The notes under the pieces are model-generated. The model searched no databases. It was not told the origin of the DNA and worked only from the letters and a program-made list of their open reading frames with translations. Made by a program: the position numbers and the translations under genes. DNA of 64,000 nucleotides from assembly GCA_039583875.1 (NCBI GenBank), contig CM077151.1, positions 27,914,390-27,978,389 on the forward strand, in the 5' to 3' direction. Positions 2,994-53,430 of the stretch are shown here, piece by piece. The DNA comes from Platanthera guangdongensis. Lineage: Eukaryota; Streptophyta; Magnoliopsida; Asparagales; Orchidaceae. Position 1 is the first letter of the stretch, and each line of letters starts with the position of its first letter.

Positions 2994-3989
2994 AAGAAGG
3001 CCGCTCCGATGAGAAAGGACCTTCCGGCGCGCAAGGTCCCGCCCGCTCCTATGCGAGATTTTGTGCCGCCATTTGCGAGTTCCCTATTGTCGCCGCCGCC
3101 TCCTCTGAACGCTCAGCAACAAGCTGACATGCCGCGAGCTCCCCTGCCTCCTCCACTAAAGACCCCGCATCAGCCGGCGGGTTTGTCGCAGCCTCCGCCG
3201 CCTCCGTCGAAGACTTTGGCCCGAAAACAGGATAAGCCGCGACCGAGCTACTTCCCGCCGAGAGTCGGGGACCCCAATCATGGAGGTCGCAGGCAGGGTA
3301 AATCTGCCGAGCATGCGGGTGGCCCATCTTCTGGCCGGCGAGATGCCCTAGGTCACGACTCTTCTCCTCGTCGATCACGGTCTCCTCGTCGCGGTAACCT
3401 CCGTCACTGTGGCTTCGTTTGATGGGTTAGGCGTTCATTTCTGATCTGGCGACTTTCCATCTATTTTGACAGATCGCCCGACGACTCTAGGGCCGGCCTT
3501 TATCGACGTCATCGGGTTATCCGGGAGCAAATATCGTCACGCTGCTGTTCACGCCTACCTGGAGCTGCAGAGCAAGTTTGATCAGCTCGTGATCTGCTAG
3601 CCTCATCGCCGGATCTCCGCCCTGGAGGTGCGGGTGGCGAAGATAGAAGAACTTCATACCACCCTGGAGAGCTACGAAGCTCGCTTCCACATGGTGAAGG
3701 AGAATGATCGCCAACTGGCGATAAACAACCATCGCCTCCAGCTTGTTCTCGACGAGATGGCCGACATTCGGGTGAGTATGGGTTCCGTGGGGCGACTGAC
3801 GAGGATGGAGGAGCAGCTACGCCTTGGTGACGATGCGATGGCGGTGGCGACGTAGACTTACCGGCGAGCGCGAGAGATGGGCTGGGCCGAGCGACATCCC
3901 CATCCTCCAGAGCGACCACCTAGAACTTAGGTTTTTTCTTTTTCTTTATTTGAACTCGCTGTAGGCGACTATTTGTAATAAACAATACT

Positions 3990-30813: not shown

Positions 30814-33800
30814 AGGGAGAAAGAGAGAAGAGTCCACTATACAAGGTGTGTGACTAATGTATAAAGAGAAAAAATAAAAGATTAAATGAGCCACAAACAT
30901 GGACCTTTACATGGACTTTTCTAACAAGATAAATACTGTTTTGTATTATATGTCCATTGTGCGGGATCCAACAACAATTCACTACGTATAAACAATCAAG
31001 CACCCTATCTCCTCAATAGACCGCGACACGGTCTTTTCATGATACGATTACGACTCCTCGAACCACATTTATTATTGCACATGCTTTTCTATTTATTTAT
31101 GTTGCCTTGGTAACTTTTTGGTAATAACATTGTATGACCACTCACTTTATATAAGAGAGTGGAAGGGAGTCTTATGACTATCTTTGAATCTTCTACATTT
31201 GGACTCTCATTTGCAAAGGGGCTTCAAGTATGAACCATCCATCCAAAATTACGTGCGAGCATACATCATGAATTGTATCCTTGCTTTTTTTACTTAATGA
31301 AATTTTGGTTTGATAGCTCGTGTTATCAATTGGTCCCACCCGCCTCTTTTCACTTAGGGTTTAATCCAAAGCGCTACTATGCTTTTCTCTCTCGTTGCAA
31401 TGCCAATCTACGACCCTCACACAATCCCAAAAATTCGCGAAATCCTGCTCCCGCTCAACTTCACGCGGATTGAAATAGACCGTGATCCACTCATTTTACA
31501 TACTCTAGCTTCACGTTCGGCTGTCCACCCACACCGTTATCATCCAAAGTCGGTCATGATCATCTCCCCTTGTCGTTGGTCGACTCCATAGTCACTTTAC
31601 ATTCTCCAGCAACTATGATCGTCTTCCAAAGTTTCAGGACTTCCAACATTTATTTTTGCGAGTGTTGTCTGACTCGCCATTTCTTACTACATCACACCTT
31701 CTAGGCTCTGTCGTAGCCTGCCGCTGGCACGATATCCAATGCAGTATCCCCAACCAGCGTCCGGTTCTCCACCCCAGGCTGTGCTCGTATTGTTCACGCC
31801 CATGACCTACTCCATGATAATTAGCATTGACGAGGATGCTTCCCCTTTGGCCTCCACCAATTCCATTCACATGGATCAACTTGAAGCTCGAGTAGAAAAT
31901 CTCGCACTCCTCTTCCACGAGTTTGTGGGCACCCTCGCCCACCGTCAGTTGGCTCCTCCATCCAGCCGAGGACCTTCACTGAGCTTCCCCTCCCCCTCTC
32001 AATATTGAGATCTCGTTGCTCGACATCATTGTTACCCTCGGCTGGATCGTCCACGCCGAACAATTCTTTAACCTTCAATTGACTCCCGGAAACCAGAAAG
32101 TCCCAATAGTGTCTGGGACCTATGCTCTACTAGGTGTGTTGGACGTGCCAGAACCTTCTTGATATCCCCCCAAGAAGAAACTCCATCGATACGACACTCA
32201 TCAAGGAGTCAACACATATGAGTGCATCAGCACCATCCATCAGTCTGACTTCGTCACGGCCTACATTACGAAATTTATTGTGGTCGCTACTCACGTGACA
32301 TGCCTCATCGAATCATTACATAGGATACTTCCTAGCTAGTCTGCAACCCCATATGCATGCCTCCTTCATATCCACCACCCATCCACCTCCCGAGGTTTAG
32401 GAAGGTTCTTTGTCTTGACAAGAAACTCTATGAGGCCCCGCTACAATGCTACCCGCCTCTCCTTGGCTACCTCCAAACTCTGTGTACTACCCCATCAACT
32501 AGATTCTCCACACCTAGTCGGACTTCCGTTGATCAGCCCGCCATCAGTACCTCTGTTGGGAATTGTGCCCTACAATGTTCCTTAGGATTTGAAGGGGCAT
32601 CACCATTCATGCTAAGGAGCATAATGTATTTGATGTGTGCTTTAGTTCATGCATGCAGGTTATCCATGATTGGACAAGTGAAGAAAATGAGTTTTGGTAG
32701 TAAAATCAAATTTCGTCGAGCTCAGCTCGAAGGTCGTCGAGCTCAGCACGCTGGTCGTCGAGCTCAACTCAACATTCAGTGGGATAAGCACAAGAGTTCA
32801 GGTTTCAACTTTCGTCGAGCTCAGTTTGAAGTTCGTCGAGCTCAGCTTACAATTCGTCGAACTCAGCTCAACACTTGTTAAGCTAAAGCCAGAGAATTTG
32901 TCTAAGGCAAAAGCGCTGAGACCGCTGAGAAGAATACGTTGAGACCGCTGAGATAGGTGAGAAGATAGCGTTGAGACCGCTGAGAAGATAGCGTTGAGAC
33001 CGCTAACACAGCAAAGACAAAACTGGTTGGATTTCTCTAAGTGCAGAAGCGTTGAGTGAAGCAGATTCACTCAAGTGCTTCTAAAAAAGCAGGAAGCGCT
33101 GAGACAGTTAAGAGTTAAACAGCTGAGACAAAACCAGCTGGATTTTTTCTAAGTCCAGAAGCGTTGAGTGAAGAAGGTTCACTCAACGCTTCTAATAATA
33201 AGGAAGCGCTGAGACAGTTAAAAGCAAGAAACTTTTGAGACAGCTGTGAAGATACCGCTGAGACAAAAACATGACACAGCTAAGAAGAAGAAAGAGCTGA
33301 GACAAAGACATGTCTCAGCTAATAATGAAAAACCGCTGAGACAAAACCGCTGAAACAAAGCCAGAGAAATTTTTAAGTCCAGAAGCGCTGAGAGCAAAGC
33401 TAATGGCGTTGAGTGTCTTAACATCACTCAACGCTTGATGGAATTCTGCAAAATTTTCTAAGTCCAGATGTTGATGACCACTGCTGACGTCATCAAAGTC
33501 AAAATTGCAGGAAGCCGTTGCGGGAAAGCTGCTGCAGCGCCGAAAGATGTTTTGTACCTTTCTGATGGAGATGACGCTCACCAATCCTTGGTGGACCCAC
33601 ATTCTATTGTGTCGTTGATTCAAATCAATGCATATAAAAAGAAAACTGTAAAGTGATTAGGGTTAACGAATACACGAGGATCAAACGCAAAAAATATAGA
33701 AAGAGAAATTGAAAGAGGCGGCTGAACATTTTCTTCCCATCAAACTTGAAAGCTAAAGTCCAGCCAAGTTAGCCTGAAGGCAAAGAAAGATAGCTCAAGC

Positions 33801-36800
33801 ACTTCAAAGTTCAGCAACTTTGTTCTCATCAGAACAATGTAGCTGATTCATCTCTTCAGCAAATTGGTAGCTGCTTATCTGTGCAGCAGAAAAGTGTGAG
33901 TTGTAGGAGAAGACTGATTTCTTCTACAACAAGTGGGCTGTATTGATATCTGCTCAGTCCAGCAAAGTTGACTCAGAGATACTTCTCTGAGTCAGTTGTT
34001 TTTGTTTTTCTTAAACAATTTGTATTAACTTCCTGTTGGATTCAGTAGATCTGAATCTGTGTGTAGGGCACTTTGTGCCTGAGGTAGGTGATAAATTTGT
34101 CACTGAGGTAGGTGCCCTGTTGGGGCACTGAGGTAGGATCCAAGTGAGGATCTGAGCTGTAGGGCTTAAGTGTCTGAGGTAGGAGAGTGTTGCTCTCTGA
34201 GGTAGGATCCAAGTGTGGATCTGAGGTAGGGCTGTCCTCCCAGCCTGAGTGTGAGGCCTTGTGTCTGAGGTAGGTGACTGGAGAGTCACTGAGCTGTAGG
34301 TGACAAGTTTGTCACTGAGTTGTAGGCCTTGGAGGAGGCTGAGTTGTAGGTACCTGAAAGGGTACTGAGTTGTAGGAGTGTTGCAGCACTCTGAGAGTAG
34401 GGCTGTGTGCCTGAAGCTGTAGGGCTGAAGAGCCTGAGTGTAGGCCTTAGAAATAAGGCTGAGGTAGGTGATCAGTGGATTACTGAGCTGTAGGAGTCCT
34501 GCAGGGCTCTGAGGTAGGAACCCTTGTAGTTCTGAGTTGGATTCTGTGAAGAATCTGTGTGTAAGGCTGAAGGCCTGAGGTGTAAGCTTTGAGAAGCATA
34601 GTGGAGTAGTTTGTGCCGAGTCCAATAAATAAGTTGGATAGGTGGGAGGGAAAGTAGATGTACCCAATTGGGGAACCACTATAAATTCTTGTGTTTGTTG
34701 TGTGCTTGCTTTTCTTTGTTATTGCAGGATTTAAGGACAAACTCTAGCTAGAACAACTTGAAAACAACAAAAAAATAAGAAAAATTCAAAGACCTATTCA
34801 CCCCCTCTCTAAGTGATTAGCTAACCTTGAATTAAATAACTTTCAAGTGGTATCAGAGGCAGATTACTCAAAAAAAGATTTAACACTCTGAGTATACCTA
34901 CAAGGTTAGCTATAAGATAATATTATGGGGTCTGGAATGAACTATAAGGAGATAGGGACCATGAAGTTGCTCATTTGCAGGAAAGAAGGATTTGGCCTTT
35001 GGAAGCAAATGATCAGACTGTTCATGGAAACATCTGACCCTAGGATCTATGTAACAATAGTGGAAGACCCTTTTATCCCCACAAAGGCTTCCACCATAGA
35101 TCCTACTGTGAGAGTGCCTAAGCATATTCAAAAATGGACAGAGATGAAGTGATTCTGTCCACCATGGACAAAAGTGCACAAAATATCATAGCTAGTGTCA
35201 TTGATGACTCAGCCTTCCAAAATCTTGTACACTGCAAAACCTCCAAGGAAATGTGGGACACCCTTGTTGTCTACATGGAAGGCTCCGAGGAAGTTAGAGA
35301 TGATAGAAAGTCCATGCTCAATCAAGAGTACGAGGCCTTCAGGCAAAGCAAGTTTGAAAAAGTTGCTGATTGTTTTGAAAGGTTCTTTATGACAGTCAAT
35401 GAACTAAGAACCTATGGTAGGGTTTTCAACAACTATGAGTTGAATGACAAGTTCCTTATATCTCTCACTAGAGATTGAGACACCAAGATTTGTGTCATTA
35501 GGGAAATGACTAAGCTAGCAGACACTCATCCACCAACACTCTTTGGAAAGCTGCAGTACTATGAAATGCAGCTGACTGCTAGACAAGAAGAGAAGAAGAG
35601 CAGCCAATTCAAGTCCAAGGACAAGTTTGTGACATTCAGGGTAGAAACCCCAAGAAGACGTAAAAGAAAGACTCTTTCACCACCAAGGAAGGAAGCTTAA
35701 TCTAGCTCAGAAGATTCTGAGCCAAGCTCATCAGACAACCACATGTCTGATAAAGATCTAACTGCCTTCTCCAGACAATTTCAGAAGTTTATAAAGAAGA
35801 AGGACTGGAGGAGCAGGCCATCTTCATCCTCTCATCACAGGAAGTCATCCAAGGATGATAGGTATGTCCCTAAAACTAGTAAACAGATTTCTTCTAATGT
35901 CATCTGTTATTGTTGCAGCAAATCTGGGCATGTCATTGCTGATTGTCCAGTCAAAAAAAAGGAAGAAGATGAGAATAAGAAGAAAAAGCATCACCATCAG
36001 CACAAGGGCAAGAAGAAGGAAAAGTCATTTATGCCTAAGAAGGAGAGAAACTGGACAGATTCTCCATCCTCAGATTCTGAAGATAAAGAGGAAGAAGTCT
36101 ATTTAGGGCTGATATATGTTGCTGCAGATCCAGGAGAAGAGGAGGAATATCCTGCTGCCAGGATAGGAATCAGAGCCCCTCTGTCACACTCAGACAGTGA
36201 CAATGAGGAGGATGAAGAAAACTATGGATGTCATGGGTTGATGACAATGCCTGCGGAAGAAAGAAGTTAGGAAGAATCAGAATCAATCAAGGTACAATCT
36301 CTCTCCAATTCTGCATCTTTCTCTGACTATGAATCCAGTCCAGATACTGGTGCATCTTCATCCTGTGATGAAGATTGATATGAATCTGTGACTGATGTCA
36401 ATCAATTGATTGACAAGTTTGAACTACTCCTAATTGCTCTAAAGAAGAGCAGAATATTTGCTAAAAGGCAAGTCAAGAAAATAGAGGTCCTAAAGCCTTA
36501 TAAAACTCTCTATAACAATAAATCTATTGAGTTTTATAAGAAAAGTCATGAGGTGTCTGAACTCAAAAAAAATATTGAGTGTCAGACCATGCTTCTAGAA
36601 GAAAAGAAGAAGCACATTAGATATCTAGAACAAGAGTTCACAGAGAAATTGAGGATTGCGATTAACCCTTCTCAGACACAGGGTCAGCTTCCAAAAGTTG
36701 CAACTTGCCAAGTCCCTGAGAAGGTGGGTATTAACCACATTAATCATCATTTCAAATCTGAATTCCCTGATAAGAGGACGGTGTTTCAGAAGGCGAATTC

Positions 36801-39800
36801 ACCTTCTAAAACTGTCAAGTTTGTGCCACTCCAGAAGGATCAATCAAATGTGTGCTCCACCACTGGGGTGAAGGCACATAATCCAAGAAAGAGTGATACT
36901 ATCCACTCTAGCCACAAAGTTCATGAGAAGTTTTTTAAATTTGGATTCAAATATCCTCTATCTAAGGAAATGAGAGTGTCCACTAGATGACAGACTCAAA
37001 AAATACATCAGGCCCATTTTTGACCAGCTGTATTTAGTTCCTCAGCACCTTCACTCAGGAAGAAGGGGGCAGCATCATACAATGCTCATCCAGCAAAGTC
37101 TGGTGTTGCTCACATCTCTCATGAACATCAATTCTGTGTTGTCCTAAAGAGAAGATACAACATTCATAAATATTGGTGTTGTGGAAAAGTGAGTCACTTT
37201 GCCATTCATTGTTGACATAAACTGAATGTGACTAGTGGACAGAAAGGTGCTCAGCCCAGACAGAGAGTGGGGCAGATGTTTTATGATGCTAAAAAGAACC
37301 TAGGATCCAATTATCATTGGGTGCCTAAGGATAAATGAATTCTGTTTTGCAGGATAGTCCAAGTACCTATCAAATTAAGACTTGGTATTTGGACAATGAG
37401 TGTTCTAGGCAAATGACTGGGACAAGATAGTTGCTTTTGGAACATGCTTCAGAAAAAGCAAGAAATTAAGGTTGAGGCTGTCAAGTTAGTAATCCTCAAA
37501 AGCTAGAGGAAGCAAACCTCAAGGTATGTCTCTCCCTCTTATATAGAGATTAAGTTCGTCATTTGATTAAGTTATGTTAGTTGTGCTCGAGATGAATCTA
37601 ATCTAACACATCAAATAGAAAAACAGTGATTCAATTATTCACACTGTTAATTTTTGTAGGCTTTACAGAAAAAAATTCAAATAACTTATTAGCAAGTTTT
37701 ACGGCAAAACAATGCACAAATTGGGTGCCAATAAAACTGGCCCATTGACATGTTAGGTCTCATTCTATTTAACTTGACAAAATTTTTACTAAGACAAATA
37801 AAATATACAACCAATTGGTAAGGGAAACCACAAATTAAACATGCATGGAACTAATAGAAGAAAAGTTGAGAGATATAGTAAAATCACTAAGTGCCCTGTA
37901 TCATAACAGGATTCGTCGAGCAATCTGTCAAGTCAAAAATGCGTAATTTAATAGTCAAATGAACAAAAAAAATAATTAAATTAATTAAATCTTTTCATTA
38001 AATATATAAAGGCGCCAATAAACGAAAAACCACATCACTCTCCAAAGCCTTAACCCTAACCGTCGAGACCGAAACCTTCTCAGCGTCTTGTCGTACTGTT
38101 TCGATGGCGCCAAATGTCATTAAGGAGGTTCATGATGGATACAACATTGTGAGGGATGGATTCAATCATGTCTCTCCTGAGATTAAAGCTGTATTAAGGA
38201 TGATTGAGGTCGCATGCTTGAAATACACCCTTTTCGAACCCTCCACCATTCTTAGAAAAGCGGTAGTGGAATTCTTCTCAAACATCAAAATGTCCCCTTC
38301 TCAAATCTCTCTTAGGTCTAAGATTGACGATATCAAAATAAAGGTGTTTGAAACCTTAAGAGACTAGGAAAGACCCTTCATATACCCTCCGTCAACCCTA
38401 TCGAGGAAGATGAGCTCGCCGACATAGACAAAGACAATGCTCTCACATGGTGTGGATACAATGAGATCAAATCTGGGTCTCTGAAAAGGAAATTCTTCAA
38501 TCAGAGAGGAAAACTGCTAGCAGACATTGTAGGGAAAGCCCTTATCTGCAAACCTAGATCACATGACACCATCTCCAGGTTCATGTTTGAAGTTATGACC
38601 AGAATTATCCTGAACAGAAAGACCTCATGGTCTTCTCTCATCTATTAGAGAATAGTAGACTGCATATCCTCTCCAAACATAGGCAGAATTATTTTCTTAT
38701 ACCTAGTGAACATATATCCTGACACTTTCACACAGGAACATGGGGTGAAGATTCACTACCTAAAAAAATGGACATAAAGACTTTGGACAGATTCACTAGA
38801 GTCTTACCAATGAGCCAAACTTCAGGAATAAAGAACTCCTCTAAGGATACAATGAAGAAACCTACTGAGAAAGAAAGAACTTCCAGCTCTGAACCAGTGC
38901 TTGGATCATCCTCTCCAGCTGATGCTGGTCTGCAGGTTGACTTATCACTCAGTCAATCCTCTGCAAATATTCAACTCCAGGATGCTGCTGTGCATGTTGA
39001 TAAAATCCATGCCAGCGCAAGGTCAGGACAAGTGTCAAAGAATGTTGCTGAAGAAGAGGTTACTGCAGAAGATGAGGCAGACATGGGTGATACTGATGGT
39101 ATTACAGCAAGTGAAGATATCACTGATGCAGAAGATAACAGGGAGCCTCCTGAGACTTTAGATACTTATCTTAATAGGTCAAGCCCAGAGAAGGATGCTC
39201 AGTCTGAGGGAGAGCATGATCAGATGAAGTTGACAGACTTGGATCAAGTTGTCAATAGAATAGTTGAGTCTGCACACACGACAGGTAAAACTCATTCCCT
39301 CTTAATTAATAATGTTAAAACAGCTTTAGCTAAGGAAATATTTCCTTCTATAAGTGTTGTAGTTGAGAGGGAGCCTTCTCAGATCTCTGCCCAGAATGCT
39401 GCACCTTCTCCTATGAGTCATACTTCATCTACCCCCATCTTCAATGAGAAATTTTTAAAACAAACTAAAGCACTCATGGATGCTCAGACCACAACCCTCA
39501 AAGAGTATGTTGATCAATCAGTTGCCAAACTGAGGGATGAATTGTCAGCTAAAGTAAATGAAACTAAAGAAGAAATATCTCACTTAAACAAACAAGTCAC
39601 CACCTGGTTTGACAAGGCTGGAACTGATGGACTCAAGTTGACCACCCTCATAGAATCTTTGGACACAAGCCAAAATTCACTGCAGCTGACATAGGATATG
39701 TCAAGAATTATGTTAGTACAACTGATGAGATGATTAAGGGTGCAGTAGATCATGTAAATCAGCATGTCACCAATGTTGTCTTTCAATCAGTGAAGGAGGC

Positions 39801-42800
39801 ACTACTCCTAAAAGATGAGCTGCTTGCTGACAATGAAAGAATACTCAAATTTATATCAAGCATGACTGAAGCCAACACCACCTTACTACAAAAGTCTATA
39901 TCTGAAGAAGACAGAAAGGGAGAGAGTAGCCATGCTAAGGCAGCAACACTCATTGAAGATCAAGCCTTCAATGTAATTCAAGGCACTAGGGTGACACTAC
40001 ACCTGCCCCTCCTGGATAGAAAAAGGCCAGAGGACTTGGACTTCCCAGCACAAGCTAGAATTGCACAGGATGCACAGCTTGCTGTCAGAAGAAAGAGGGA
40101 AGGAACTCAAATGACTGAACAGTTCATGACAAAGAGGAGAGCTGAGAACAGAGATAATTCAGACTATGAACAACTTAGTGATGCCTCTGAATCCATCATT
40201 ATCAATGTTTGGGTAAGCCATAGACAAATCCTGAAAAATATTGATAGTGTATATCCTTCTGAGGAATGGATAAAACATTTGGAAAAAAATTTCCTAAGGG
40301 AAAGAGTATACAAGGAGAATCTGGTAAGGAAGAGCAACCCCAAGAAAATACCTTCCAGATATATTCCAAAGTCATTCCTTTACTTCAAGAGGCAGAAGAA
40401 CAGAACTGAAAACTTGAAGAAGACTGATGTAACCAAGGATGCTGGTGAAAGTTCTTCAAAGACTAATTGATGAAAGACTGTAAGACTTAAGTTTCTTTTA
40501 TTCTGTCTGATTTATGCCTTGTAATGATCATCAACAGTGTAAAAAAATTTCAAATCTTTATCAATAAAATTAATATGTTTTGGCCCTGACCATATTGAGG
40601 CGATAAATCTATAATGTAACTCTCTGTGTATATCAGTGATTGATAAATATGTTATTCGTTCATAAAAATCCTATAATCACAAGTATGCTGTTATTGTTTG
40701 GCTAAGTTAATGATTAGGTTCATCTTGATCATAATGTTTATTTTGTTAATGATTAATAAAGCTTGTGTTGTTAATCATACCATCACATTGTAAATAATTG
40801 TCAATTAACCTGTACCATTGATTTGTCAATCATAATGTTAAGACATCTCATCTAGAGGGAGTTTTCCTGTTTTGGTATGGCTAATTGTCATGATAATGTT
40901 TCTTTGACCTATCATGATATTTCTTATATTGTTGCACTTTAGCATGAATGTGTGTTCTGCCTTCTTCAAATAGGGAGAGATTGTTGGGAATTGTGTCCTA
41001 CAATGTTCCTCAGGATTTAAAGGGGCATCACCAATCATGCTAAAGAGCATAATGTATTTGATGTATGCTTTAGTTCATGCATGTAGGTAGTCCATGATTG
41101 GACAGATGAAGTTCGTCGAGCTCAGCTCGAAGTTCGTCGAGCTCAGCACGCTGGTCGTCGAGCTCAACTCAACATTCAGTGGGATAAGCACAAGAGTTCA
41201 GGTTTCAACTTTCGTCGAGCTCAGCTTGAAGTTCGTCGAGCTCAGCTTACAAATCGTCAAACTCAGCTCAACACTTGTTAAGCTAAAGACAGAAAATCCG
41301 TCTAAGACAAAAGCGCTGAGACTGCTGAGAAGAAGACGTTGAGACCGCTATGACAGCTGAGACAGCTGAGAAGATAGCGTTGAGACCGCTGAGACAGCTG
41401 AGAAGATAACGTGGAGACCGCTGAGACAGCAGAGACAAAACTGGCTGGATTTCTCTAAGTCCAGAAGCGTTGAGTGCAGCAGATTCACTCAACGCTTCTA
41501 ATAAAGCAGGAAGCACTGAGACAGTTAAGAGATAAACAGCTGAGACAAAACTAGCTGGATTTTTTCTAAGTCCAGAAGCGTTGAGTGAAACAGGTTCACT
41601 CAACACTTCTAATGAAGAAGGAGACGTTGAGACAGTTAAAAACAAGAAACCACTGAGACAACTGTGAAGATACCGCTGAGACAGAAACTTGACACAGCTA
41701 AGAAGAAGAAAGCGCTGAGATAAAGGCATGTCTTAGTTAATAATGAAAAACCACTGAGACCGCTGAGACAAAGCCAGAGAAATTTCTAAGTACAGAAGCG
41801 CTGAGTGCCAAGGCTTAAGGCGTTGAGTGTCTTAACATCACTCAACGCTTGATGAGATTCTGGAAAATTTTCTAAGTCCAGATGCTGATGACCACTGCTG
41901 ACGTCATCAAAGTCAAAATTGCAGGAAACCGTTTGCGGGAAAGCTGTTGCAGCGCCGAAAGATGTTTTGTCCCTTTCTGATGGAGATGACGCTCACCAAT
42001 TCTTGGTAGACCCACATTTTATTGTGCCGTTGATTCAAAACAACGCATATAGAAAGGAAACTGTAAAAGGATTAGGGTTAACGAATACACAAGGATCAAA
42101 CACAAAAAATATAGAAAGAGAAATTGAAAGGGGCGGCTGGACATTTTCTTTCCATCAAGCTTGAAAGCTAAAGTCCAGCCAAGTTAGCCTGAAGGCAAAG
42201 AAAAATAGCTGAAGCACTTCAAAGTTCAACAAGTTTGTTCTCATCAGAACAATGTAGCCTATTCATCTCTTCAACAAATTGGTAGTTCCTTATCTGTGCA
42301 GCAGAAAAGTGTGAGCTGTAGAAGAAGATTGATTTCTTCTATAGCAAATGGGCTGAACTGATATCTGCTTAATCCAACAAAGTTGACTCAGAGATACTTC
42401 TCTGAGTCAGTTGTTTTTGTTTTTCTTAAACAAATTGTATTAACTTCCTGTAGGATTCAGTAGATCTGAATCTGTGTAGGGCACTTTGTGCCTGAGGTAG
42501 GTGACAAATTTGTCACTGAGGTAGGTGCCCTGTTGGGGCACTGAGGTAGGATCCAAGTGAGGATCTGAGATGTAGAGCTTAAGTGCCTGAGGTAGGAGAG
42601 TGTTGCTCTCTGAGGTAGGATCCAAGTGTGGATCTGAGGTAGAGCTGTCCTCCCAGCCTGAGTGTGGGGCCTTGTGCCTGAGGTAGGTGACTGGAGAGTC
42701 ACTGAGCTGTAGGTGACAAGTTTGTCACTGAGTTGTAGGCTTTGGAGGAGGCTGAGCTGTAGGTACCTGAAAGGGTACTGAGTTGTAGCAGTGCTGCAGC

Positions 42801-45800
42801 ACTCTGAGAGTAAGGATGTGTGCCTGAAGCTGTAGGACTGAAGAGCCTGAGTGTAGGCCTTAGAAATAAGGCTGAGGTAGATGATAAGTGGATCACTAAG
42901 CTGTAGGAGTCCTGCAGGGCTCTGAGGTAGGAACCCTTATGGTTCTGAGTTGTATTCTGTGAAGAATCTTTGTGTAAGGCTGAGAGCCTGAGGTGTAAGC
43001 TCTGAGGAGCATAGTGGATGAGTTTGTGCCGAGTCCAACAAATAAGTTGGATAGGTGGGAGAGAAAGTGGATGTACCCAATTGGGGAACCACTATAAATT
43101 CTTGTGTTTGCTGTGTGCTTGCTTTTTTTGTTATTGCAGGATTTAAGGACAAGTTCTAGCTAGAACAAACTTGAAAACAACAAAAGAATTAAGAAAAATT
43201 AAAAGACCTATTCACCTCCCACTCTAAGTGATTAGCTAACTTTGAATTAAATAACTTTCAACCTCCACCAACAGTACCTCTACCACCCCAACGCTTGACT
43301 CACCACGTACAAAGACCTCCGTCATAGTATTTGTATTCTCCAACCTATAAATGCCCTCTTAAGGAACTGTATTTGTTGATTAGTGCTGAAGATGATGACC
43401 CTTACTTTGTAGGCTTGGATCCTCTTACACTTAGTGACGAACCCTTCAAACCTCAACCTTGGTGACAAGGTCGATTTCGAAGAGGGAAATATTTATATGA
43501 TTACTATTTCACGGACCCACCGCCTCCTCGCCAAAATTCCACAATCCTAGTATCATACATGTTTTTTTTATCTACATAGCCCTAGACATTTTGGTAATAA
43601 AGTTGTGTGACCACTCTGGTCTATATAAGAGAGTGGAAGTGGGTCTTAGGACTATCTTTGGATTTCCAAGATTTGGACTCTCATTTGGAGAGGGGCTTGA
43701 AGAAGGAACCAACCCTCGGAAGTTAGGTGCCAACATACCTCACGAGTTGTTTCCCTACATTTTTTCTAATGAAATTCTAATTTGATAGCTCATACCACCC
43801 TGTCATCTAGCCCTTGCTAACAAGCTGCAGTCACTGAGATTGCTTGAGTCGTTAGTTATCACGCAATGACTACTCTACCCTCGGATTTTTCCCTACATAT
43901 TGCTCACGAGGTCCTCGGCAAACAGACGTCATACTCGCCATGTACGCTCTCTATATAGTTTTCGCTTGTAGAGTGTAGTTCTTGCAACCTATGGCATTGT
44001 GGTAGTGCGACACTGAGATTGCTTGAGTAGTTAGTTATCACGCAATGACTACTCTACCCGTATAGTCCTAGGAACTAGCTTGTGACACAAAGATCGTGCA
44101 TAGGGAACATGGAGGCGTGACATAAAGGTGTGACAACAACTTTGTCAGTTTCGATGGGTATGTGCCCGTTATTGTACCCCTGTAGCTGAGCAGTAATAAT
44201 CATAACTTTTTACGGGACATTCACTGTGCGTCAACATCTTGAGCATGCTTTACACGTGACCATCACCTTCTCAGATAGATGGACTGTATAAGCCTCTTTC
44301 CAAAGGAGAGAGTGGTTTGAAATTCTGGAGAGGAGCAATACAGAGAGGAGGTTAAGAGTGAACTCTTGAGGTTCCTGGGTTAGCGGTGGGTTCTCTAAAC
44401 TCTTTTTTTGCACTCTTGAGTATGGTAAAAGGCGCGAGACCTGGCCTCAACAACACTCAACACCACATGAAATATGAGTGCTGAGAGCTGGTTGGGGTGT
44501 GCGGACTGCAACTATATTGTTGGGAATAACAAAGAGCCCACAACAAAACAATTTAGTGTTCAACAACATAAATGGTGTGGTGAGTGTGGAGCTGAACAGA
44601 ACTCAAAACTAGAGGCCATGACAGTCAACTGTAACCCTGAAATGGCGTCTAACTTGGAGCCTATGATCAGACAAGAGCTTACTATCATCGAACAAACACT
44701 GGCCAGCCTGGTTCAGGTATAGCAATTTCTCACCAATCTTCCCGATCAAACCTTATCCCCATTCCCCCAACTCCCTTCTTCTCCAACTCCTCTCCGCGCA
44801 AATCCCTCTGCATCCCCCAATATCGCTCATCCTCCTTCCGTTAATCCTTCAACATTCCCCAAAATCAACCTGCCGCCTTCAAGGCCAACACACGGGGGTG
44901 TTCTGCGGCCAGAACAGTAGGCCCTAGCGGCCCTGGTACTAGACACCCGGCTTGTGGGCCAGGATTGGAGTTTCACGCCCCATATGAGGCAGAAACTAAC
45001 ACATACAGTGACAACGATGACGAGTTGTCACCCTTTGGTTATCACATTTGCGCGAAGCAATTTCCGCAGGATTTTCGCTAGCCAAAACTCCCCACCTTAA
45101 ACGGGAATAGCGTCGCGAGGAACCATATTAGAAGGTTCGAGTCCTCGCTGACAGTGAGGACACTCATCAGTAGCCTGAACTGTCGCCTCCTCTTCGCGAT
45201 CTTAGAGGGAGCAGCAATTAATCTTTTTATTGTCAATTTGAAGAGTCCTTCATATTAATCGTATTAGTCATTCATACTTGTTCACAGTCGTATTTCTTTT
45301 ATTCCTTTTTTTTCGTCCTCCCACTTTGTAATAATTCTTTAATCTCTTGCACAAGCATGATTCTTTCCTATCTGTTTTAGTATGGTATTTTTGATAATGT
45401 CATTTAACACTGTACAGGCTCTATCTGGTTCTGTGATAACTGGAGCGATGATATACAGTTTAATCTATGCCGTCGAAACCGATCCTGGAACGACATACGG
45501 CCGCTTGCTCTCTAACATGCGCTCTATTATTCGAGGGGCCGATACTGGTGTCCGGTTGAGTGGTCCAATTGCTTCTTTTATGAAACATGTTCTCAGTTTT
45601 GGATTCAAACAGGTATTTTATTCGTCTATCCTACTACCAATTTATTTCACAGTTTTATCAACTTCACATTCTGTTATCATCTTGGTAAATTTTGGCTCCG
45701 TTTGGGGGGACTTATTTTCACCGGTGAAGCGGTTACGAGTCCTGTTCATGCGGTCGTAACCGCTTGACCGGTGAAAATAAGTCAAGGTCCAGTTCATGCG

Positions 45801-51364: not shown

Positions 51365-53430
51365 TGAGCCGGAAAGTACCTGGCCCCTCCCAGGAGAGTC
51401 AACCTGTCAAGCCAGCTAATGGGAGCCTGGGTGACGAGACGGCCTCGGGGTAAAAAACACTTGGCCTCCCCGAGGGGTCGACCTGTCAAGCCAGCTAATG
51501 GGAGCCTGGGTGACGAGACGGCCTCGGGGTAAAAAACACTTGGCCTCCATGAGAGATCAACCCGCCCTGTCAGTTAGTGAGAGCATGACAGCGGACTCCA
51601 TCTCGGAGCTAAAAGGAATTAGCCTTCACGAGAGATCAACCTGCCCTGCCAGCTAGTGAGAGCCTGACAGCGGAATCCATCTCGGAGCTAAAAGGACTTA
51701 GCCTCCACGAGAGATCAACCTGCCCTGCCAGCTAGTGAGAGCCTGGCAGCGGAATCCATCTCGGAGCTAAAAGGACTTAGCCTCCACGAGAGATCAACCT
51801 ACCCTGCCAGCTAGTGAGAGCCTGACAGCGGAATCCATCTCGGAGCTAAAAGGACTTAGCCTCCACGAGAGATCAACCTGCCCTGCCAGCTAGTGAGAGC
51901 CTGGCAGCGGAATCCATCTCGGAGCTAAAAGGACTTAGCCTCCACGAGAGATCAACCTGCCCTGCCAGCTAGTGAGAGCCTGGACAGCGGAATCCATCTC
52001 GGAGCTAAAAGGACTTAGCCTCCACGAGAGATCAACCTACCCTGCCAGCTAGTGAGAGCCTGACAGCGGAATCCATCTCGGAGCTAAAAGGACTTAGCCT
52101 CTACAAGAGATCAACCTGCCCTGCGAGCTAGTGAGAGCCTGACAGCGGAATCCATCTCGGAGCTAAAATGACTTAGCCTCCACGAGAGATCAACCTACCC
52201 TGCCAGCTTGTGAGAACCTAACAACGGAATCCATCTCGGAGCTAAAAGGACTTAGCCTCCACGAGAGATCAACCTGCCCTGCCAGCTAGTGAGAGCCTGG
52301 CAGCGGAATCCATCTCAGAGCTAAAAGGACTTAGCCTCCACGAGAGATCAACCTGCCCTGCCAGCTAGTGAGAGCCTGGCAGCGGAATCCATCTCGGAGC
52401 TAAAAGGACTTAGCCTCCACGAGAGATCAACCTACCCTGCCAGCTTGTGAGAACCTGGCAGCGGAATCCATATCGGAGCTAAAAGGACTTAGCCTCCACG
52501 AGAGATCAACCTACCCTGCCAGCTAGTGAGAGCCTGACAGCGGAATCCATCTCGGTGCTAAAAGGACTTAGCCTCCACGAGAGATCAACCTGCCCTGCCA
52601 GCTAGTGAGAGCCTGACAGCGGAATCCATCTCGGTGCTAAAAGGACTTAGCCTCCACGAGAGATCAACCTGCCCTGCCAGCTTGTGAGAACCTGGCAGCA
52701 GAATCCATCTCGGAGCTAAAAGGACTTAGCATCCACGAGAGATCAACCTACCCTGCCAGCTAGTAAGAGCCTGACAGCGGAATCCATCTCGGAGCTAAAA
52801 GGACTTAGCCTCCATGAGAGATCAACCTGCCCTGCCAGCTTGTGAGAGCCTACCAGCGGAATCCATCTCGGAGCTAAAAGGAGTTAGCCTCCACGAGAGA
52901 TCAACCTGCCCTGCCAGCTTGTGAGAACCTGGCAGCGGAATCCATCTCGGAGCTAAAAGGACTTAGCCTCCAGGAGAGATCAACCTGCCCTGCCAGCTTG
53001 TGAGAGCCTGGCAGCGGAATCCATCTCAGAGCTAAAAGGACTTAGCCTCCACGAGAGATCAACTTGCCCTGCCAGCTAGTGAGAGCCTGACAGCGGAATC
53101 CATCTCGGAGCTAAAAGGACTTAGTCTCCACGAGAGATCAACCTGTCCTGCCAGCTAGTGAGAGCCTGACAGCGGAATCCATCTCGGAGCTAAAAGGACT
53201 TAGCCTCCACGAGAGATAAACCTGTCCTACCGCTCGTGAGAACCTGGCAGCGGAATCCATCTCGGAGCTAAAAGGACTTAGCCTCCACGAGAGATCAACC
53301 TGCCCTGTCATCTAGTGAGAGCCTGACAGCGGAATCCATCTCGGAGCTAAAAGGACTTAGCCTCCACGAGAGATCAACCTGCCCTGCCAGATTGTTGGAG
53401 CCTATCAGCGGAATCCATCTCGGGGGGAGA
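51365..53430. repeat. 79-bp minisatellite, about 26 units
   Basis: The unit begins CTCGGAGCTAAAAGGACTTA and continues GCCTCCACGAGAGATCAACC, TGCCCTGCCAGCTAGTGAGA, GCCTGACAGCGGAATCCAT. Starts at 51444, 51523, 51602, 51681 and 51760 are each 79 bp apart, and 53419 is exactly 23 units beyond 51602. The first units are diverged. Since 79 is not a multiple of three, it is not a coding repeat. Confidence 0.95.

Follow-up and report, generated by a model that had tools for sequence, protein, structure and literature searches.

Host element and its LTRs

The window analyzed here is a stretch of 64,000 nt from the genome of Platanthera guangdongensis (assembly GCA_039583875.1, CM077151.1, positions 27,914,390 to 27,978,389, forward strand). 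It carries a retrotransposon bounded by a 5′ LTR of 2,292 bp (32554..34845, + strand; TGTTGGG...TTTCA) and a 3′ LTR of 2,279 bp (40982..43260, + strand), and each LTR contains the hairpin array that is the subject of this report. The sequence ACCTC lies directly before the 5′ LTR and directly after the 3′ LTR and is a target-site duplication. The two LTRs are separated by a K2P distance of 0.069, which gives an element age of ~2.7 million years at a substitution rate of 1.3e-8 per site per year.

Between the LTRs, gag is present as pieces in separate frames (35122..36990, + strand): a copia-type gag domain, a zinc-knuckle-like piece, and a third piece without a family. These pieces include a match to Pfam Retrotran_gag_2, the zinc-knuckle-like piece scores below the Pfam cut-off, and a protein search with a 118-aa gag piece returned seven candidates, none at E <= 0.001. 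Three more open frames without a family follow at 38002..40470 (+ strand). The first matches a region 3′ of pol in a related locus (L041, 30% identity), and a relative of the last one lies 5′ of the array in another locus (L039, 48% identity). A pol query from a third locus (L045) had no match between the window LTRs, and the element was therefore taken to be non-autonomous. Judged by its sequence features, the array-bearing element is a pol-less, Sirevirus-like member of Ty1/copia. Outside the element, the window also holds a 79-bp tandem repeat of ~24 copies (51538 to 53423).

The TATA box CATATAAAAAG (33631..33641, + strand) is a likely promoter, as judged from its sequence and from the onset of ATG depletion nearby; the same position is degenerate in the 3′ LTR (CATATAGAAAG). 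According to the available part of PMC2829016, Sireviruses have their TATA box at about the middle of the LTR with palindromic repeated motifs (RMs) upstream, and the core CGG-CCG occurs in 12 of 13 RM-bearing elements. The window TATA box is found at 47% of the LTR with dyad repeats upstream, but these have a GAGCTC centre instead of CGG-CCG. The U3 repeats with dyad symmetry, of the TCGTCGAGCTCAGC and GCTGAGACA types (32713..33360, + strand), occupy the place that the same part of that article gives for Sirevirus RMs.

Other Sirevirus signals given there were also looked for. The Sirevirus LTR/PBS junction CA/A(T or G)TGG-TATCAGAGC appears in the window as CA/AGTGG-TATCAGAGG (34844..34859, + strand), with one change at the last base. 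The polypurine tract is described in that portion of PMC2829016 as AGGGGGAG followed by AT/TG at the 3′ LTR, with several identical copies per element; the window has AGGGAGAG-AT/TG, an octamer that is one change off with the attachment site intact. An exact tract (AGGGGGAGATTG) is found at position 1413 of locus L032, a sequence that contains 500 N. A C-rich integrase signal near the LTR end, likewise reported in the available text of PMC2829016, is present in the window LTR as the similar stretch CTATTCACCCCC (34792..34809, + strand), and a U5 core motif, GAACCACTATAAA, is located at 34650..34690 (+ strand).

Architecture and predicted folding of the array

The array is located at 34039..34597 (+ strand) in the 5′ LTR and recurs in the mate LTR at 42452..43008 (+ strand). 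A preliminary description of this DNA had placed ~24 mini-hairpins joined by a near-constant linker in the first of these intervals. Its coordinates were right, and local folding with a span of 30 closes 23 hairpin loops there. The predicted hairpins have variable stems of ~6 bp and loops of 4 nt and are joined by TGAG(N0-2)GTAGG, such that each unit can be written as G-stem-loop-stem-C followed by this linker, with a commonest length of 16 nt plus the linker. The linker itself is indeed nearly constant, taking the form TGAGGTAGG or TGAGYTGTAGG, plus variants. The prediction also pairs the two final G residues of a linker with the C and U located about where the following linker begins, and these G-U and G-C closing pairs lengthen the helix.

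When at most one substitution is allowed in the linker, the 5′ LTR parses into 15 units and the 3′ LTR into 16. In each LTR, 14 units are 13 nt or longer, and 56 of 56 arm pairs tested in them are standard, whereas 2000 arm swaps gave on average 28.2 and 27.1 such pairs for the two LTRs and at most 43 and 42. Units of all lengths have their first three arm pairs intact in 14 of 15 (5′ LTR) and 14 of 16 (3′ LTR) cases. Some short units are weak, and no structure forms in 2 of 19 (5′ LTR) and 3 of 18 (3′ LTR) segments from a looser parse when these are folded alone.

The preliminary description had named excess folding energy over shuffled sequence as a check. Local folding of the array gave z scores of −5.85 (+ strand) and −6.25 (− strand), and 0 of 200 dinucleotide shuffles are as low for either strand. 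Other arrays in the genome fold less strongly: for the 46 arrays that span 150 nt or more, z has a median of −2.1, is below −2 in 24, and reaches +0.32 in the weakest. GNRA tetraloops occur 21 times in 173 loops, whereas column shuffles predict 5.9; because loops are shared among related units, we did not count this excess as evidence. A search of 32500 to 35000 with Rfam cmscan (E <= 1) gave three matches, none inside 34039 to 34597 and none near its gathering score.

We also considered a reading of the linker as a 5′ splice site (GAG|GTAGG) with TTGCAG at ~34727 as the acceptor. This reading was set aside on two sequence observations: the motif is interrupted by two bases in linkers of the second class, and some families (e.g., L034, L058, and L059) lack the acceptor-like site.

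Occurrence of the array in the genome

Arrays of this type are abundant in the 4.25-Gb host genome. Pairs of TGAGGTAGG no more than 20 nt apart occur 17,373 times, compared to 42 times for the reversed pattern, and pairs of TGAGYTGTAGG spaced 9 to 18 nt apart occur 30,807 times, compared to 0 for the reversed-pattern control. For further analysis, we assembled 62 arrays (645 units, 458 distinct) consisting of the two window LTRs and 60 arrays from contig C1. The latter were drawn from ~70 distinct places among the 100 matches listed, which cover the first 39 Mb of this contig. Sampled arrays were picked by exact linker pairs and not by hairpins, and eight loci that were extracted first were left out of the counts. 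Because the sample includes mate LTRs of single elements as well as copies that are related to each other, the counts are not independent.

The downstream signals of the window LTR are enriched after these arrays. Among the 48 of 62 sources with at least 330 nt after the array, the U5 core motif is found downstream of 43 and the C-rich stretch 3′ of 42, each within two substitutions, and the PBS junction follows 17 within three substitutions. In 198 control windows, the corresponding numbers are 6, 11, and 2. When 20 loci of 10 kb were inspected, two (L041 and L047) had an array, a PBS-like site, gag, and pol on one strand. Their pol homology covers the RT part in L041 and the first 490 of 801 residues in L047, where it ends before RT. 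The remaining loci have gag only, pol pieces with weaker similarity, or a coding part on the opposite strand. Within positions 3766 to 9999 of L045, downstream of an array-bearing LTR, there is another Sirevirus-like element, in which domains of both gag and pol are present. It has U3 dyad repeats of the TCGTCGAGCTCAGC type, the core motif, and an ATG-poor leader, and it has no match to the linker.

Viral contigs were scanned as well. The array pattern matched 19 stretches, in which the best LTR match had E = 0.029, and a gag search yielded two pattern stretches, neither of which was confirmed. One viral contig carries at positions 1 to 81 a 22-bp tandem repeat containing TGAGGTAGG; there is no LTR match in this contig, and we took the repeat to be a chance match.

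Pairing and covariation of the stems

Pair statistics were computed for 359 distinct units after exclusion of those shorter than 13 nt (99 of 458). Their 1436 arm pairs comprise 1158 Watson-Crick, 96 G-T, 56 A-C, and 126 other pairs. By comparison, 500 arm swaps gave a mean of 446 Watson-Crick pairs (sd 20) and a maximum of 506. Standard pairing of own arms is 87% and falls to 23 to 43% when one arm is slid by 1 to 3 bases (359 units, 62 arrays). The sequences involved are diverse: among 257 units from the first 42 sources there are 110 different 5-nt arms, and all 5 bp are paired in 98 of these units versus 6.8 by swapping. The preliminary claim that the sequence varies while pairing is kept is borne out by these controls. 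The shuffled, swapped, and slid controls correspondingly reject the view that the inverted repeats arose by chance as an ordinary tandem repeat decayed; the array is indeed a tandem repeat, but its pairing is so far outside these controls that we assign this explanation practically no chance of being correct. Orthogonality of the arms is no greater inside single arrays than across different ones, with perfect cross-pairs at 2.55% and 2.67%, respectively.

Compensatory changes, also proposed as a check at the outset, were detected by comparing 312 distinct units of 14 to 17 nt with each other. Exactly two positions differ in 263 unit pairs, and in 28 of these both changes fall on one stem pair, whereas ~9 such cases are expected at random. 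Pairing is kept in both units in 14 of these 28 (13 of which change Watson-Crick to Watson-Crick) and is not kept in the other 14. At the sequence level, the double changes show covariation and are not independent events, as the unit pairs are related. One-sided changes at 2, 3, and 4 differences produced 48, 98, and 164 G-U versus 44, 100, and 152 A-C pairs, and this near-even distribution is as expected if most such changes reflect decay. At 5 differences, the numbers are 213 and 152.

Units found in at least two loci differ in composition from those seen once. The former have 248 Watson-Crick, 9 G-T, 0 A-C, and 11 other pairs (268 in total), compared to 910, 87, 56, and 115 for the latter.

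Inheritance and decay of stems

To separate inherited changes from recent ones, we used 22 copies of the subfamily to which the window element belongs (both window LTRs plus 20 copies from 13 contigs). In these copies, 113 pairs of 21 hairpins were followed, and 1 of 22 hairpin strings was not located in the window copy. Variants private to one copy occur at 0.0213 per cell in stems, 0.0196 in loops, and 0.0208 in linkers and other positions. After insertion, then, stems are seen to decay at the same rate as loops and linkers. Private stem variants keep pairing in 24 of 106 cases and create 21 G-T and 28 A-C pairs.

The pattern is different for variants common to at least three copies, in which pairing is kept in 10 of 14 cases and there are 8 G-T versus 2 A-C pairs. 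Fisher tests of this class against private variants gave p = 0.0005 for pairing and p = 0.04 for G-T versus A-C, although the inherited variants are few and the copies are related. Variants in exactly two copies, which were excluded from these tests, kept pairing in 15 of 29 cases (12 G-T, 9 A-C). Per site, variants in at least two copies are fewest in linker and other positions (0.13), compared to 0.20 in stems and 0.23 in loops. Stems are thus left unrepaired in the genome, and pairing looks to be filtered during the activity of the element, on the strand in which G and U can pair, namely that of the sense RNA.

ATG depletion and the putative leader

Trinucleotide counts were compared with a Markov expectation in 22 loci with long flanks. 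The observed/expected ratio for ATG is 0.89 to 1.13 in U3, from 2200 to 600 nt before the array. Nearer to the array it declines to 0.72 and 0.64 and then to 0.41, 0.28, 0.26, and 0.22 over the last 400 nt upstream. It is 0.37 in the array, 0.42 to 0.52 over the 300 nt after it, 0.72 in the next 100 nt, and 1.03 to 1.10 beyond 400 nt. CAT, the complement of ATG, remains at 0.64 to 1.13 throughout, except for one bin at 1.49 with 8 expected. From 400 nt before to 300 nt after the array, CAT is at 0.73 to 1.49, where ATG is at 0.22 to 0.52. In the last 400 nt before the array, the 22 loci have 38 ATG versus 133 expected and 118 CAT versus 140 expected. Other trinucleotides also deviate in the same loci, such as ATC with ratios of 0.40 to 2.10, and the array row of this test is not clean in that the linker fixes CTG.

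Within the array, a shuffle that keeps stem pairs gave 37 ATG versus 87.3 expected (sd 7.7) and 36 CAT versus 52.4 for the 359 units, a depletion that CpG trinucleotides, GTC, and GAC show to about the same extent. For 112 less related units, ATG is at 13 versus 27.7 (sd 4.1) and CAT at 12 versus 15.1. In the window, the interval from 33660 to 34924 has 2 ATG versus 20.3 expected and 5 CAT versus 9.7 (14 of 300 shuffles). A TATA-like box is present 350 to 650 nt upstream of the array in 11 of the 22 loci, and another occurs in the last 100 nt in 8 of 22.

We read the ATG footprint as that of a sense 5′ leader scanned by ribosomes, which would begin close to the TATA box (33633) and reach as far as gag. 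The preliminary description had proposed that the array is transcribed in the RNA leader if this box is the promoter, and the beginning of ATG depletion near the box agrees with this proposal. The second element in L045 lacks an array and is also ATG-poor (1 ATG versus 11.1 expected; 13 CAT versus 15.7), so ATG avoidance marks the leader and not the function of the array. ATG is otherwise rare in the leader, and the U5 core (window 34658 to 34684) contains one, which opens a very short upstream frame. The sequence there is GTGGATGTACCC in many relatives and GTAGATGTACCC in the window 5′ LTR.

Possible functions and alternative explanations

The architecture of the array, the pairing and covariation of its stems, its location in a sense-strand leader, and its neutral decay after insertion are all supported by the comparisons above. 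On balance, we think it probable, though far from assured, that short RNA hairpins strung together in the sense 5′ leader make the array a multivalent linker platform, with Gag as the leading candidate ligand. In this Sirevirus-like Ty1/copia lineage, the array would sit in the R/U5 part of the genomic RNA 5′ leader. Each segment would be kept self-folding by selection acting while the element is active, and stem letters could change freely as long as their partners change to match. The near-constant linker would leave GAG..GUA single-stranded, closed by the fixed G-U and G-C pairs, and the stems would act as spacers that hold 15 to 23 linker copies exposed and evenly spaced for multivalent binding. 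The leading candidate for the ligand would be the element’s own Gag/nucleocapsid, which would bind for packaging. We infer protein binding, the identity of Gag, and the packaging role, and the last two are a first guess because of the leader location and the zinc-knuckle-like Gag piece that scores below the Pfam cut-off. Several findings count against the platform reading: both strands fold equally well, the G-T excess over all distinct units is modest (96 versus 56 A-C), one-sided changes at 2 to 4 differences are nearly even, variants in exactly two copies are mixed, and the arms show no orthogonality within arrays. The low CAT count in the window leader, the deviations of other trinucleotides, the ATG-poor leader of the array-less element in L045, and the TATA-like boxes upstream in only 11 of 22 loci weigh in the same direction. 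Somewhat doubtful, yet possible, is the broader proposal that a sequence-free hairpin array whose stems space constant single-stranded linkers represents a new RNA architecture, maintained by selection in the genomic RNA leader of a large lineage of plant retrotransposons and used as a multi-copy assembly or packaging signal.

The main rival to packaging is a role in translation, in which weak local hairpins block long stable folds and thereby keep an AUG-poor leader of ~1.2 kb open to scanning ribosomes, or slow them, and the linker binds a translation factor or nothing. The leader is ATG-depleted, the stems are short, and TGA and TAG are found within linkers (892 TGA and 765 TAG in 17,391 array bases), all of which agree with such a role. 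We nonetheless regard it as unlikely, given that it does not by itself explain a near-constant linker and that the leader of the array-less element in L045 is ATG-poor as well. The array could instead be the product of a functionless copying error, with snap-back template switching by reverse transcriptase or polymerase converting near-palindromes into palindromes. Neighboring units differing in whole stems would fit this origin, as would the finding that 13 of the 14 double changes that keep pairing at distance 2 go from Watson-Crick to Watson-Crick. We give it little credence, since private stem changes stay unrepaired after insertion at a rate like that of loops and linkers, inherited G-U exceeds A-C, and neither the near-constant linker nor the geometry is accounted for. 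The preliminary description had offered selection on structure or a stem-making copying mechanism. Selection is favored by our data, whereas ongoing copying or repair at the DNA level is disfavored because new stem mutations are not repaired and inherited changes favor G-U. Template switching during reverse transcription may be a source of the stems.

An explanation at the level of DNA is that the palindromes are regulatory protein sites or siRNA hot spots, as in the published Sirevirus LTR palindromes. Sirevirus RMs are palindromic in the available part of PMC2829016, and maize small RNAs are in excess on palindrome-rich LTR parts in the available portions of PMC5311732 and PMC10760457. However, the stem letters of the array vary to an extent (110 distinct 5-nt arms in 257 units) that argues against a common DNA site in the stems, the G-U and ATG signals are strand-asymmetric, and the array is downstream of the TATA box, which together make this explanation improbable in our view. 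The linker itself may contain a DNA site. Returning to the platform reading, numerous related elements of this genome likewise keep the pairing, which suggests that the element depends on an RNA structure.

Comparison with known systems

Retroviral packaging signals consist of a few specific stem-loops in the 5′ leader that are bound by Gag. Like them, the array would place hairpins with exposed purine-rich pieces in the 5′ leader of an element copied by reverse transcription, but it has ~20 units with interchangeable stems instead of a few specific hairpins. In CRISPR arrays, constant units alternate with variable ones. The likeness is architectural only and implies no relation, as the variable part is self-complementary here and the constant part is the linker. 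To our knowledge, RNA selection and packaging by plant LTR retrotransposons are largely unknown, and the leaders of these elements have rarely been examined for structure. In this one genome, natural linker pairs that enclose a structured unit number in the tens of thousands, and post-insertion decay provides an internal neutral control, such that pairing rules, the linker, and the limits of the leader could be read from sequence.

The preliminary description knew of no feature of this kind. This stands for arrays in a leader whose stems vary while the linker is constant, of which we found no description in the open-licence literature among the matches listed; the string TGAGGTAGG appears, among the matches listed, in one paper, on bean SSR markers. 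It does not extend to LTR palindromes, which have already been published for Sireviruses, mostly upstream of the TATA box and with one palindrome per element. In the available part of PMC2829016, Sirevirus RMs are copies of one palindrome per element with 66 to 100% identity (Table 3 therein), and 92% of RM copies in LTRs are in the upper half, upstream of the TATA box. Maize Sirevirus palindromes are predicted to fold and are matched by many small RNAs, according to the available portions of PMC5311732 and PMC10760457. The array shares with these RMs and palindromes that it is a high-copy, dyad-symmetric repeat within LTRs. Unlike RMs, its stems differ from unit to unit, its linker is near-constant, and it is positioned 3′ of the TATA box. 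The array is thus neither one copied palindrome nor upstream of the TATA box, and we have not classified it as an RM. These differences suggest that some palindromes of Sirevirus-like LTRs form a class that acts at the level of RNA and is separate from the motifs published for the promoter side.

The window LTRs do have dyad repeats at the RM place in U3. This region also holds two tandem copies of a ~111-bp unit, at 33008 to 33224 in the 5′ LTR and at 41426 to 41639 in the 3′ LTR. Each unit contains a long inverted repeat, which in one copy is perfect over 14 bp (AAGCGTTGAGTGAA...TTCACTCAACGCTT).
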